Assembly: GCA_019417795.1 (NCBI GenBank)
Contig: DXUR01000151.1
Span: 1 to 6,531, forward strand
Origin: Clostridiales bacterium
Lineage (GTDB): Bacteria; Bacillota_A; Clostridia; Oscillospirales; Oscillospiraceae
Reading direction: 5' to 3'
Length of the DNA stretch: 6,531 nt
Part shown: positions 1 to 5,850 of the stretch, in pieces
Numbering within the stretch: the stretch's first letter is position 1
How the letters are laid out: the number at the start of each line of letters is the position of its first letter
Made by a program: the position numbers and the translations under genes
Notes under the pieces: model-generated
What the model was told of the DNA's origin: nothing
What the model saw: only the letters and a program-made list of their open reading frames with translations
Databases searched by the model: none

Positions 1-294
1 TTCATTTGGGAATAATTCAAGCTGGCGAATCATATAATGTGTACTTGGAATGTAATCAAAATAAAACAATAGTGCTAGATATAAACTCCATGGAATTGGG
101 CGTGTCCGATTTTCGTAGGCACTATAAGTTTGTCGTGAAATACCAACAGCCGAAGCAATTTCTTCTTGTGATGCACCAACTTTTCCTCTGAGTGCGGGTA
201 ACTCAATCGCCAATTGAGTGGCCAAGTTCTCTTTCTCATCTTTACTAAAATTCCAAAACTGCTTATAAGCATCTCGCCCTACAAATTGAATCAA
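1..294 (-). CDS. XRE-family helix-turn-helix regulator, partial (3' end beyond window)
   Basis: The 98 visible codons are open and run off the left edge, so the C-terminus is missing. Residues about 33-75 form a Cro/C1-type helix-turn-helix: SQEEIASAVGISRQTYSAYE is the helix 2-turn-helix 3 core, followed by NRTRPIPW. The start is a TTG at 294-292, chosen because a perfect AGGAGG (302-307) lies 7 nt upstream and no ATG or GTG start exists in frame further up. A DNA-binding transcriptional regulator is expected; its targets are unknown and may lie to the left. No convincing promoter lies between the gene and the integrase terminator at 342-388. The 25-bp inverted repeat at 319-343 sits in its leader, which suggests expression depends on inversion of the neighbouring segment. 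The domain call is firm; the regulatory role is inferred. Confidence 0.8.
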   Translation of the reverse strand, partial: MIQFVGRDAYKQFWNFSKDEKENLATQLAIELPALRGKVGASQEEIASAVGISRQTYSAYENRTRPIPWSLYLALLFYFDYIPSTHYMIRQLELFPNE

Positions 295-301
295 TAAATC
301 T

Positions 302-307
302 CCTCCT
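302..307 (-). promoter_or_regulatory. Ribosome binding site that fixes a TTG start
   Basis: On the minus strand this reads AGGAGG with a 7-nt spacer to the TTG at 294-292. It is the main evidence that the left-edge reading frame is a real gene despite the non-ATG start. Confidence 0.75.
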
Positions 308-318
308 GGGTATACTCT

Positions 319-343
319 TTCGTAGAGTACATTACTCCACGAA
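319..343 (-). repeat. Left inverted repeat (IRL) of the candidate inverton
   Basis: The 25-bp sequence is the exact reverse complement of 1705-1729, and identity stops abruptly on both sides. Each copy is itself an imperfect dyad: arms TTCGT-GAGTA and TACTC-ACGAA around a short asymmetric centre (ATG on one strand, CAT on the other). Such a core, with two inverted arms and an asymmetric spacer, is what a tyrosine recombinase crossover site looks like. It lies 24 nt upstream of the TTG start of the left XRE gene. Confidence 0.8.
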
Positions 344-388
344 AAAACACCGCCAAACACTGAAAACTCAGCATTATTTGACGGTGTT
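342..388 (-). terminator. Intrinsic terminator of the integrase gene
   Basis: The arms AACACCGCCAAA (346-357) and TTTGACGGTGTT (377-388) pair over 12 bp with one G-T wobble. An inner CTGA/TCAG stem (360-363, 368-371) caps the structure. On the minus strand the stem is followed by six T (342-347). It begins 7 bases past the integrase stop and would insulate the left XRE gene from integrase transcription. Confidence 0.8.
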
Positions 389-405
389 GACAATTTATTT
401 GACGG
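374..405 (+). repeat. Pair of 11-bp direct repeats TTATTTGACGG at the 3' end of the integrase
   Basis: TTATTTGACGG occurs at 374-384 and again at 395-405, 21 bp apart (two helical turns), overlapping the integrase stop and terminator. A related TGACGGC occurs at 1564-1570 near the other end of the segment. Tn916-family integrases bind arm-type direct repeats with their N-terminal domain, so these are candidate arm sites. That reading is inferred from spacing and place only; the first copy also serves as one arm of the terminator. Confidence 0.4.
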
Positions 406-1531
406 CTAATAAATCAGAAAGCCGTTGCATATTTTCTTTTTTTAAATCCATGGATGGGTGTACATAGCGATTCATTGTAATATTCACGCTGGCATGACCC
501 AATATCTCGCTGAGACTTTTTACATCGAATCCAAGCTCTATGCACCTTGTAGCAAATGTATGACGTAACGAGTGATAATTTGCGGAGTTGATTCCGCTGT
601 TTTTCAATACCTTCTTGAAATGATTTTGCATGGTTCTTGGTTCTAATGGATTCTGATCGCTATTGGTTAGAATGTAGCCAGTAGAAGAAGCTTTGTGTGC
701 TGTAAGAATAGTCATTAAGCCATGGGGTACTGGAATAGTACGGATGGAGCAAGCACTTTTGGGTGTGGTAACAACAATCCTTGTCTTGCATTCACTGTTG
801 GTTCTATCTTGGATTCTCTGGAGCGTTTGATGCACATGGATTGTGTAATCTGAGAATGAAACATCTTCCCATCGCAACGCACAAATTTCACCTACTCTGA
901 GACCAGTGAATAAACATACTAATATACCAATATTGCAGGAATCAAGATTAGAATACAAGTATTGGCATAATTTTTCCTGTTCAGCACGACTCAAAACTCT
1001 CATTTCCTTCGTTTGACGTTTTATCTGTATAGATCGTGCGTCACAAGAAATGGCTTTCCCGTTTCGGGTGGCAAATTGTAAGATATTTCGAATTAGAGAT
1101 AAAATATCTGAAACAGTTTTAGAGGAAAGTCCATTCTCCTTTAATCCACCAGAAACAAGGAAAAAATTACACTGCGTTTCAATAAACTCGTGTGTTATAT
1201 CACGCAATTGTTTGCTTCCGAACACAGGAAGTATATACGAGCTGAGAAGATTCCTATATTTGTTGCTTGTAGATTCCTTCACTTTAGGACATATAGCTTG
1301 AAACCATTCCATAGCAACCTGTTCAAATTGATCTGAGCTAATTTCTGGATCGACAGTGACAGAATTACTCGTGCACGAACTTTGACTGATAAGTTTTGCT
1401 TTGACTTCTCGATATGATTTTGCATAAACATAACCGTAATTGGCTTTGCCTGTAGAAGATCGGGACTTAATGTATCTTCCTTCCCATCTGCCGTCTTTCC
1501 TTTTGTAAATATTTTCTCCTTTTCGTGCCAT
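395..1531 (-). CDS. Tyrosine recombinase/integrase (Tn916-type, with arm-binding domain)
   Basis: This 378-aa site-specific recombinase has the usual three parts. Residues 1-50 (RKDGRWEGRYIKSRSSTGKA and following) form an AP2-like arm-binding domain. Residues about 65-155 form the SAM-like core-binding domain. Residues about 178-360 form the catalytic domain, with all expected residues visible: Arg212 in TGLRVGEICALRWED, Lys258 in TPKS, His320 and Arg323 in HSLRHTFATR, His346 in LGHAS, and the nucleophile Tyr356 in MNRYVHPS. The start at 1531 is preferred over an upstream in-frame ATG at 1549 because AAGGAGGTG lies 6 nt before it and overlaps that earlier ATG region. The gene sits wholly inside the 25-bp inverted repeats. 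Int followed by immA and immR in one direction also matches the left end of ICEBs1-like elements, so it could be the ICE integrase. Its own promoter is not clear. Confidence 0.93.
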   Translation of the reverse strand: MARKGENIYKRKDGRWEGRYIKSRSSTGKANYGYVYAKSYREVKAKLISQSSCTSNSVTVDPEISSDQFEQVAMEWFQAICPKVKESTSNKYRNLLSSYILPVFGSKQLRDITHEFIETQCNFFLVSGGLKENGLSSKTVSDILSLIRNILQFATRNGKAISCDARSIQIKRQTKEMRVLSRAEQEKLCQYLYSNLDSCNIGILVCLFTGLRVGEICALRWEDVSFSDYTIHVHQTLQRIQDRTNSECKTRIVVTTPKSACSIRTIPVPHGLMTILTAHKASSTGYILTNSDQNPLEPRTMQNHFKKVLKNSGINSANYHSLRHTFATRCIELGFDVKSLSEILGHASVNITMNRYVHPSMDLKKENMQRLSDLLAVK

Positions 1532-1639
1532 AAGGTACACCTCCTTCAATATGACTATAATTCTGACGGCAAATTGTGACTTTGGAACTTCCTAAGACGG
1601 ATTTTTGCGCAAAACCTCGTGTTTTATGTCCCTAACATA

Positions 1640-1668
1640 TTGACAAACAGTGCGACAACTTGTAAAAT
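1640..1668 (+). promoter_or_regulatory. Outward-facing near-consensus promoter inside the inverted-repeat segment
   Basis: TTGACA (1640-1645) and TAAAAT (1663-1668) are separated by exactly 17 bp, close to the sigma-A consensus; the start point would be near 1675. It points away from the integrase, through the right repeat (1705-1729). In the present orientation no gene lies before two successive terminator-like hairpins. In the inverted orientation it would serve the left XRE gene. Confidence 0.7.
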
Positions 1669-1704
1669 AGAGATGTAAATTAAAAAAAACAGAGAAGAAT
1701 GCGA

Positions 1705-1735
1705 TTCGTGGAGTAATGTACTCTACGAATTTTTT
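1705..1735 (+). repeat. Right inverted repeat (IRR), followed by a T-run that makes it terminator-like
   Basis: Bases 1705-1729 are the exact inverse of 319-343. On the plus strand the dyad (TTCGT-GAGTA/TACTC-ACGAA) is followed by six T (1730-1735), so a transcript from 1640-1668 would form a hairpin plus U-tract here. At the left copy the same strand of the repeat is followed by AGAGTATACC, with no T-run. The terminator-like property therefore comes from the flank and would depend on orientation. Confidence 0.7.
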
Positions 1736-1740
1736 ATTTT

Positions 1741-1784
1741 AAAGAACCTCAAGATAGCTCATATTGTCGTCTTGGGGTTCTTTT
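1741..1784 (+). terminator. Intrinsic terminator right of the inverton
   Basis: Arms AAAGAACCTCAAGA (1741-1754) and TCTTGGGGTTCTTT (1770-1783) pair over 14 bp with one wobble, ending in TTTT. It would stop rightward transcription before the next XRE gene. Confidence 0.7.
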
Positions 1785-1913: not shown

Positions 1914-2291
1914 ATGGAGGTGATTGAAACGCAACCGGAAATTGATTACGTTAAGATTGGTCAGCGCATTAGAGCTGCCCGACTGGAAAAGGGTTATAGT
2001 CAGGCTGATTTGGGTGCGTTGGTTGGTTGCTCGAACAATCATATGAGCCATGTTGAAGTTGGACAGACGAAAGTTTCTTTGGCAATGCTTCTAAAACTGG
2101 CATTCGTCTTGGAAAAGAACTTTGACTATTTTTTGCTGGATACCCCATATGCAAAATGCGACAGCATCATCGATGATGAGATTGCTGCAAAACTGAAAAA
2201 GTGTAATGTAACAACATTGATAACCGTAGGAAAGATGATTGATGTCTTGATTGACCAGCAAGAGATGATAAAAAAAGCGGAGCTTGATTGA
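1914..2291 (+). CDS. XRE-family helix-turn-helix regulator, 125 aa
   Basis: A single Cro/C1-type DNA-binding domain spans residues about 11-70: IGQRIRAARLEKGYSQADLG, then ALVGCSNNHMSHVEVGQTKV and LAMLLKLAFVLEKNFDYFLL. A helical tail of about 50 residues of unknown role ends IDQQEMIKKAELD. It is a likely transcriptional repressor, possibly of itself, given the palindrome at 1828-1845. The start is uncertain. ATG 1914 fits the promoter at 1863-1891, but no ribosome binding site precedes it; GGAGGTG (1917-1923) lies inside the first codons. Initiation may be leaderless-like, or at a nearby non-ATG codon. It is transcribed alone, has its own terminator, and faces the immA gene tail to tail. Its target is unknown. 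Confidence 0.85.
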   Translation: MEVIETQPEIDYVKIGQRIRAARLEKGYSQADLGALVGCSNNHMSHVEVGQTKVSLAMLLKLAFVLEKNFDYFLLDTPYAKCDSIIDDEIAAKLKKCNVTTLITVGKMIDVLIDQQEMIKKAELD

Positions 2292-3060: not shown

Positions 3061-3510
3061 TTACTCTTTATCTTTATGCTTTCTGTATTTCTTCGGAGTG
3101 TACTTTTCCCGTGCTGTTTTCTTAGAGTCCATATAAACTGACATAATCGCCTGGAAGAATACATCTTTTGCGTCCTCGTCCAATTCTCCACCGGCAAACA
3201 GAGAATTTACACGACCCAGCACTTCCTGAGCTTCTTTTGCTCCCTTTGAACCGAAGTTTTCCTTTGCCTCTAAAATAAACATATCCTGATCTATATGGCT
3301 CTGGCTGTCCGTTTCAGATTCATCCAAAAGATAGGACACAGAGATATGCAGCGCTTCAGCAAGTTTTCTGATGTTGCTTTTTCTGGGGAGTGTTCCGAGC
3401 TGCTCATAGGTGTAAAGGGATCTTTCGGAAATGCCGGTCATCTGGGCAAGCTCCGTTTGAGATAGGTTCATAGCCAAACGAGCTTCTTTAATTTTTTCTC
3501 CAAATGTCAT
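3061..3510 (-). CDS. immR: ImmR-like XRE-family repressor, 149 aa
   Basis: Residues about 4-62 form a Cro/C1-type helix-turn-helix: GEKIKEARLAMNLSQTELAQ, then MTGISERSLYTYEQLGTLPR and ISVSYLLDE. The remainder, about 85 residues, is charged and has a Lys/Arg-rich end (KKYRKHKDKE). The N-terminal DNA-binding domain, the longer C-terminal part and the immA gene just downstream match the ImmR repressors of ICEBs1-type elements. These bind operators between themselves and the divergent operon and are inactivated by ImmA. The start at 3510 has AAGGAAGG upstream with a slightly long spacer. A copy of the AACTTCCGAT-type motif (3546-3555) lies just upstream of the gene, consistent with autoregulation. 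The gene name rests on synteny and domain layout, not on a search. Confidence 0.85.
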   Translation of the reverse strand: MTFGEKIKEARLAMNLSQTELAQMTGISERSLYTYEQLGTLPRKSNIRKLAEALHISVSYLLDESETDSQSHIDQDMFILEAKENFGSKGAKEAQEVLGRVNSLFAGGELDEDAKDVFFQAIMSVYMDSKKTAREKYTPKKYRKHKDKE

Positions 3511-4564: not shown

Positions 4565-4599
4565 GAGAGCTTGGAGTAATTTACTCCGGCTCTTTTTTT
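4565..4599 (+). terminator. Second tandem terminator or attenuator before the small XRE gene
   Basis: GAGC (4567-4570) pairs with GCTC (4589-4592), and inner GGAGT (4573-4577) pairs with ACTCC (4583-4587); seven T follow (4593-4599). It ends only 24 nt before the ATG at 4623, leaving no room for a promoter afterwards. It is therefore probably an attenuator passed by read-through, unless a promoter lies inside the hairpin region. Confidence 0.7.
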
Positions 4600-5442: not shown

Positions 5443-5850
5443 ATGATGAAAGAAAATTGGGTATATTGCCGTGGTGATATTTATTGCGCCAATCTGGACC
5501 CGGTAGTTGGGTCGGAACAAGGCGGCATCCGTCCGGTTATCGTCATTCAGAACGATACCGGTAATAAACACGCTCCCACATTGATTGTGGCAACGGTCAC
5601 CACCAGAATCCATAAGAAAGCGAATATGCCGACGCACTTTGTTATTTACGACAATCCTGCATTCAAAGAAGCGTCCGTTGTTCAGCTGGAACAGATTCGC
5701 ACCATTGATAAGAGCAGGATTGATAATTACTTAGGTAAGGTAACGCCCCGTGAAATGGTAGCGATTGAGAAAGCCTTATCCGTCAGCCTGGCAATGGAGC
5801 AGCTGAAAAAGCGTTCCACAAAACATAAAGCAAAGAAAACGAAGGAGTGA
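5443..5850 (+). CDS. mazF: MazF/PemK-family toxin (endoribonuclease), 135 aa
   Basis: The protein closely follows the Firmicute MazF/NdoA pattern: RGDIYCANLDPVVGSEQGG, then IRPVIVIQNDTGNKHAPTL, TLIVATVTTRI, and VVQLEQIRTIDKSRIDNYLG. These proteins cut single-stranded mRNA at short sequence motifs. Arg30 (in GGIRPV) and Thr53 (in ATVTT) correspond to the catalytic pair known in Bacillus MazF. It is about 15-20 residues longer than usual, with a Lys-rich tail (KKRSTKHKAKKTKE). The start at 5443 has AAAGGAGG 9 nt upstream; the adjacent ATG at 5446 is equally possible. No MazE-like antitoxin lies upstream. The next gene, 6 nt downstream, encodes an excisionase-like protein. In clostridial ICEs such lone PemK-like genes are common and may serve element maintenance or regulation. 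Confidence 0.92.
   Translation: MMKENWVYCRGDIYCANLDPVVGSEQGGIRPVIVIQNDTGNKHAPTLIVATVTTRIHKKANMPTHFVIYDNPAFKEASVVQLEQIRTIDKSRIDNYLGKVTPREMVAIEKALSVSLAMEQLKKRSTKHKAKKTKE

Follow-up and report, generated by a model that had tools for sequence, protein, structure and literature searches.

A candidate family of recombinase-enclosing promoter switches in gut Clostridia, with a member beside an XRE regulator gene in an erm(B)-carrying conjugative element

In the Hin system of Salmonella, the gene of a serine recombinase and an outward promoter lie together inside an inverted DNA segment, and flipping of the segment connects or disconnects the promoter. Here we describe a segment of comparable layout in a 6,531-nt stretch of DNA from a member of the Clostridiales (contig DXUR01000151.1; the whole stretch is hereafter called the window), in which an inverted repeat encloses a tyrosine recombinase gene, the terminator of that gene and an outward promoter, next to a gene for an XRE-type regulator. 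The arrangement typical of Hin, i.e. repeats around both a recombinase and an outward promoter, is present, and we consider it very likely that positions 319-1729 form a self-contained invertible promoter cassette. The cassette shares with Hin the location of these two elements within the segment; it differs in the type of the recombinase, in the sites, and in the target, an XRE gene that is followed by erm(B) in other copies of the same integrative and conjugative element (ICE).

Several other described systems come close to this design. According to PMC5903667 (this and the other cited articles are represented here by excerpts), which names Hin as a recombinase inside its own segment, a putative fimbrial segment of Providencia stuartii, 844 bp in length, also encloses a recombinase. 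There, however, the repeats are imperfect and only 14 bp long, and the excerpt presents a single case with no family described. The same source describes RecV of C. difficile, which resembles our system as a tyrosine recombinase that inverts DNA in Clostridia, but has as its substrates several short segments (154-230 bp), none of which includes RecV, a comparison made by description only. Likewise, inverton group 139 of PMC11892184 is tied to the tyrosine-type invertase group 35 in gut Clostridia, and thus represents clostridial invertons linked to a nearby recombinase of the same general type; compared by description only, its two examples with coordinates have approximately 205 and 227 bp between the repeats, which is too short to accommodate a recombinase.

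With respect to antibiotic resistance, the nearest counterparts are the resistance genes under invertible promoters designated IP-ARG-1 to -3, reported in the excerpts of PMC8748976 from Bacteroidales only and found ON in 4 of 96 cases, with ermB included in IP-ARG-2. There, an invertible promoter precedes a resistance gene on an ICE and is mostly OFF, and the putative invertible promoter described here would resemble it in these respects. In IP-ARG, on the other hand, the invertible promoter has a different consensus, contains no coding sequence and lies downstream of the invertase gene, whereas the present segment encloses its recombinase, has a sigma-A-type promoter and, as far as hosts are named, occurs in Clostridia; the window itself ends before erm(B). 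Invertible regions that include or overlap coding sequence, as the present segment does, were discarded in that survey. Inversion linked to resistance is not new as such in Firmicutes, since a review (PMC11868660) cites a chromosome-scale flip that affects antibiotic resistance in lactococci. Our literature search, with most subscription papers outside its scope, revealed neither a family of recombinase-containing promoter invertons in Clostridia nor a switched erm(B) there, and the recombinase-enclosing switch family appears undescribed in the literature searched.

The repeat arms of the window (319-343 and 1705-1729) are 25 nt long, fully complementary and separated by 1361 nt; by an arithmetic estimate (about 2 x 10^7 position pairs times 4^-25), such a pair is expected by chance about 2 x 10^-8 times. 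Each arm is itself an imperfect dyad of 11 + 3 + 11 nt with one mismatch, of the type TTCGTRGAGTA-NNN-TACTCYACGAA, in agreement with the asymmetric dyad noted in the preliminary description, and the left arm is a candidate recombination site. The gene between the arms (395-1531, minus strand) encodes a protein with the PF00589, PF14659 and PF22022 domains, in which PF00589 (Phage_integrase) scores 97.3 bits against a curated cut-off of 27.1. It is a tyrosine recombinase and not a serine recombinase, so the cassette would work like Hin without being a member of the Hin family. Its closest solved structures are chains named 'Int protein' (6en0, 6emy, 6emz), and the HxxR, GH and RY motifs, which we take to be catalytic, are readable in the alignment with these relatives. 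The open frame extends to a TTG at 1549 (384 aa), but the start is most likely the ATG at 1531 (378 aa), given the AGGAGG just upstream and the length of 378 aa in many of the listed relatives among the 7999 best-sharing candidates that were scored.

The recombinase gene ends in an intrinsic terminator (346-388, minus strand; -22.3 kcal/mol, z -5.3), the T run of which reaches the left repeat. Near the other end of the segment, with 36 bp between it and the right repeat, there is an outward sigma-A-type promoter (TTGACA-17-TAAAAT, 1640-1668, plus strand) that matches 11 of 12 consensus bases. It is the best of only three promoter-like sites in positions 1-2400, fewer than the mean of 7.4 obtained by shuffling; its weight therefore comes from the quality of the site and its conserved place rather than from its mere presence. 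In the given orientation this promoter faces two stops, which makes the present orientation the OFF state: the right repeat, which as RNA forms part of a hairpin followed by U residues (1703-1731, -15.6 kcal/mol), and a second terminator-like dyad just outside it (1741-1783, plus strand; -21.9 kcal/mol, z -7.6). The repeat, fold and promoter scans thus confirmed the perfect repeat around integrase, terminator and outward promoter that had been described previously.

On the left, an XRE-type regulator gene (1-294, minus strand; HTH_31, 38.2 bits) points away from the cassette. As previously described, it starts with the TTG at 292-294 preceded by AGGAGG at 302-307, and it runs off the window at position 1. 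Its lack of a good promoter in the given orientation is also borne out, as a consensus scan between the left repeat and the gene start found no site matching at least 9 of 12 bases. The other XRE-type gene (1914-2291, plus strand; probable ATG at 1914, from the frame and a domain search) lies beyond both terminators and is probably not the target of the switch.

We propose that the enclosed recombinase would bind the two dyad repeats and invert the 1.4-kb segment. In the OFF state, the promoter would fire into the right-repeat hairpin and the second terminator, and the recombinase terminator would shield the left gene. In the ON state, transcription from the promoter would cross the left repeat and a leader of about 80 nt, enter the XRE gene and continue into what comes after it, which in the other copies is erm(B). 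Judged from sequence alone, there is a high probability that this copy recombines, and it is likely that the ON orientation would transcribe the XRE gene; that the expression of erm(B) would follow the switch is somewhat more probable than the contrary. The XRE gene as the switched gene, proposed in the preliminary description, is accordingly retained as far as anatomy goes, with all the parts in place, but no copy was seen in the ON state.

The case for inversion is strongest at the level of the recombinase family. Two order-level searches yielded related recombinases (E-value of 1e-60 or better), one of them in 55 of 392 genomes and the other in 61 of 394. We looked for inverted repeats between 500 bp before and 450 bp after the gene, and accepted pairs with a score of at least 15 that exceeded the best of 20 shuffles. 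By this test, matched flanking repeats are present in 50 of 65 family loci, or in 44 of 59 when six extra copies of the element from the window are subtracted. Two loci were not counted as positive, namely L045, which passes the test with repeats longer than 200 bp, and L071, where a pair was found in a wider search. A second set of 40 loci, hand-picked and not random, from the listed family matches without a locus, yielded 34 positives, two of them with long repeats. In most cases the upstream arm is approximately 170-290 bp away from the gene and the downstream arm 20-100 bp. Within a locus the two arms match or nearly match, centre included, whereas between loci both the sequences and the centres differ (e.g. 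CAT vs AAA). In ten of the same genomes, no repeat pair was found for any of 25 PF00589 recombinases from outside the family, compared to five of five family genes; all 30 returned loci were tested, although three of the 25 (L197, L208 and L220) are perhaps not recombinase frames. In the phylogenetic tree, from which these three and one short frame were omitted, 95 family sequences (77 with repeats, L045 and L071 included, and 18 without) are separated from 21 controls by a branch with a support of 92, and the members without a repeat pair are scattered.

The outward promoter is also a property of the family. Scored with one simple matrix over the stretch between the gene start and the upstream repeat, it reaches a mean of 16.6 in 44 cassettes, against 12.5 for shuffled sequences and 12.6 for the inward direction; the corresponding values for the second set are 17.4, 12.4 and 12.6 in 31 cassettes (the 34 positives minus one near-duplicate and the two cases of long repeats). 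A conserved outward promoter is needed by an invertible promoter, and not by a plain integrase gene. By a crude frame call, a frame pointing away from the cassette is found nearby in 38 of the 44 cassettes: on the far side only in 21, on the promoter side only in nine, and on both sides in eight. The Pfam scan of 30 of the 46 away-pointing frames revealed a nonribosomal peptide synthetase, a glycosyltransferase, a signal peptidase, a sigma factor, a response regulator, a VWA protein, SpoVT-like, TetR-type and XRE regulators, and TnpB-like proteins, with some matches weak and some frames without any. Given such varied neighbours, the switch looks portable.

Both orientations were found among relatives of the cassette, if not among its own copies. 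Long flanking sequences were read for eight relatives in and around one clade (recombinases 52-100% identical to that of L110), and seven of them share an operon that starts with signal peptidase I, the eighth (L138) having other neighbours. The peptidase assignment is based on Pfam S26 matches in L108, L109 and L110; L109 additionally matches TIGR02228 above the cut-off, while the SipW model remains below it. The operon is situated at the promoter end of the cassette in L141-L144 and at the opposite end in L137, L139 and L140. Furthermore, 4 of 72 cassettes have a contig end no more than 100 bp from a repeat, where 0.7 would be expected (Poisson P 0.006), and in two of the four the contig ends precisely on the first base of the repeat, as would be expected if assemblers had met both orientations. 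Comparison of related genomes, which had been suggested as a way to find the flipped form, thus showed opposite orientations relative to one operon in the relatives, four against three, and a single orientation in the ten copies of the window type. Taken together, the layout, the controls, the promoter, the matching centres and the two orientations support, at the family level, the promoter inverton built on a tyrosine recombinase that was originally described.

The copies of the window type come from a mobile element. The recombinase occurs at 99% identity in the genomes of seven named species from seven genera: Butyricicoccus pullicaecorum, Blautia glucerasea, Agathobaculum massiliense, Negativibacillus massiliensis, Eisenbergiella porci, Brotaphodocola catenula and Clostridium fessum. 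Two more copies are found in genome G742 and in the faecal scaffold MT836186, which is filed as phage, and both repeats are intact in all nine. A DNA search of 391 genomes of the class returned window-type copies from the centre genome alone; the window DNA had no match among plasmids, and the recombinase had none in viral contigs. In the viral contigs, a degenerate pattern of the site matched two, L024, which has only a partial recombinase, and L025, which has none. Copies of the site with at most three mismatches number two per genome in G001-G004, G006 and G007, and three in G005 and G008. A recombination breakpoint at the left repeat, considered because window positions 1-318 are identical to the relatives, was dropped, as the first difference appears only at 438.

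Judged from a comparison of three genomes, the ICE ends on the right near G001:C20:97,960, approximately 7.3 kb from the cassette, and the part of the ICE common to G007 and G742 contains relaxase, TraG-type and topoisomerase genes. The segment is thus inside the ICE and not at its edge, as the preliminary description had it. Near the right end there is a second, different integrase together with an excisionase-type protein, which makes it unlikely that the window recombinase is the mobility integrase of the ICE.

Two explanations would dispense with the switch altogether. The repeats could be attachment sites, used by the recombinase to integrate and excise a cassette or the ICE. This would agree with the domains that the protein shares with integrases of ICEs and phages, with the 'Int protein' chains as its best solved relatives, and with the many unrelated genes that adjoin the cassettes. 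However, recombination between two inverted sites leads to inversion and not to excision, the ICE has an integrase and an excisionase-like gene of its own at its end, and the outward promoter is conserved. Moreover, the inverted pair represents the only copies of the site (at most three mismatches) in six of the seven named-species genomes, the seventh having three, and we regard an integration function as very unlikely. Even less probable, in our opinion, is the possibility that the repeats are merely operators or terminators of the recombinase gene that never recombine. Such a role would suit the dyad structure of each arm, the folding of the right one as a terminator and the constant orientation of the window-type copies. 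Nonetheless, an operator has no need of centres that match within a locus yet differ between loci, nor would it account for the opposite orientations beside one operon in the relatives or for the absence of a pair from all 25 controls.

Two further alternatives accept an inverting segment, past or present, and differ in what it does. It is conceivable that the promoter alternates between two targets, serving the right XRE gene in the present orientation and the left one after inversion; both outer genes point away from the segment, as do frames on both sides in the eight cassettes mentioned above (by the crude frame call). Yet two terminators separate the promoter from the right XRE gene, so an either/or switch seems quite unlikely. 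It is also unlikely, though less markedly so, that we are dealing with a switch that no longer inverts, is locked in the OFF state and is carried as a passenger of the ICE. All ten copies have the same orientation, and the XRE gene appears truncated at the point where the erm(B) module starts. The perfect repeats, the open frame of the recombinase, and the promoter hexamers that remain unchanged between copies about 1.7% apart speak against such decay; besides, the resistance switches of Bacteroidales are likewise mostly OFF, with 4 of 96 ON (PMC8748976, in the excerpts).

Returning to the invertible promoter, a number of observations weigh against it or against its control of erm(B). Qualifying repeat pairs are missing from 14 of the 65 loci and from six of the 40. 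Among the 14, the pair of L071 is further apart, in L036 a small segment bounded by inverted repeats lies next to the gene, L079 is too short for the test, and the contig of L010 stops 35 bp after the gene; a search of all 14 for close-spaced repeats found, apart from the L036 segment and the wider pair of L071, only weak, AT-rich or plain hairpins. At least one-tenth of the shuffles equalled the outward promoter in eight of the 44 and two of the 31 cassettes. All ten window-type copies, the window included, are in the OFF orientation, cassettes from sister genomes agree in orientation (L229/L232/L233/L235, L227/L231/L234 and L239/L242), and so do two copies within one genome (L240/L241). In the clade that shows both orientations, the operon match of L144 is the weakest (38-48% similarity) and begins about 600 bp out, and the other flank is not common to the two orientation classes; joint relocation of the cassette and the operon is an admissible alternative to inversion there. 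Finally, some copies of the ICE contain a TATAAT box that may drive erm(B) independently.

This last point depends on how erm(B) is joined to the XRE gene. In all nine copies apart from the window, erm(B) comes next after the XRE gene and has the same orientation. It is whole in eight, with a frame of 245 residues (262 where additional codons precede it), and the ninth record, MT836186, stops about 80 bases into it. The protein from L001 was identified as Erm(B) with 565.7 bits to NF012220 (cut-off 525). The junction has two forms. In the first (L001-L004 and L007), 127 bp of other sequence precede erm(B), and it is this insert that holds the TATAAT box. In the second (L005, L006, L012 and L087), the distance is approximately 80 bp, and the only promoter-like site on the coding strand is a weak one (9/12) inside the XRE gene, which is present in both forms. 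Control of erm(B) by the switch is more likely in the L005-type copies than in the others, since erm(B) follows closely behind the XRE gene with only this weak site between. In the relative L095, which lacks erm(B), the XRE gene is longer, and the next gene contains a HEIGH motif resembling that of metallopeptidases (read by eye), from which it seems that the erm(B) module has cut into, and truncated, the XRE gene. The window starts at the exact point where the two junction forms part (window 1, L001:6549), as if the source assembly had stopped there because both forms were present.

In its broadest form, which we regard as evenly balanced between true and false, our proposal is that gut Clostridia harbour a large family of portable switches placed before many kinds of genes, and that the ICE member, which occurs in no fewer than seven named species, renders erm(B) phase-variable, so that the hosts carry erm(B) silently and a flipped minority survives macrolide treatment. 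If this is true, Bacteroidales are not the only hosts of resistance genes controlled by invertible promoters, and surveys that discard invertible segments with coding sequence miss a whole design. It would also provide a rule for finding candidate phase-variable genes in Clostridia, i.e. to find the recombinase clade and read the gene beside the repeats, and mixed macrolide susceptibility in commensals with this ICE could be tested from existing reads.

Some members of the family deviate from the common plan. L045, L162 and L163 have very long inverted repeats (scores of 209, 133 and 208, compared to 15-36 in the others), and are perhaps shufflers of coding segments that use the same recombinase family. 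In L036, which has no flanking repeats, an inverted-repeat segment of 375 bp lies just after the gene (2714-2732 and 3108-3126); it is a possible link to the short clostridial invertons of the literature. In L101, L103 and L104, a TnpB-like gene (PF07282) lies 15-52 bp outside the cassette and points away from it, a layout that would set a TnpB homologue under an invertible promoter.

Among the predicted relatives of the recombinase, P0007, P0009 and P0010 diverge into unrelated sequence at or just after the shared YHSLRH motif. The protein predicted from P0044, a metagenome contig of 2077 nt, is an in-frame fusion of the N-terminal part of the recombinase with the C-terminal part of Erm(B), which reflects either a deletion that spans the left repeat and the XRE gene or an artefact of assembly; its gene order agrees with that of the OFF state. 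Elsewhere in the ICE, a terminator-like hairpin at window positions 4572-4586 resembles the inner part of the recombination site in 14 of 15 bases, probably by chance, and a gene for a PemK/MazF-type toxin (5443-5850, 110.3 bits) is followed by small HTH_17 genes.
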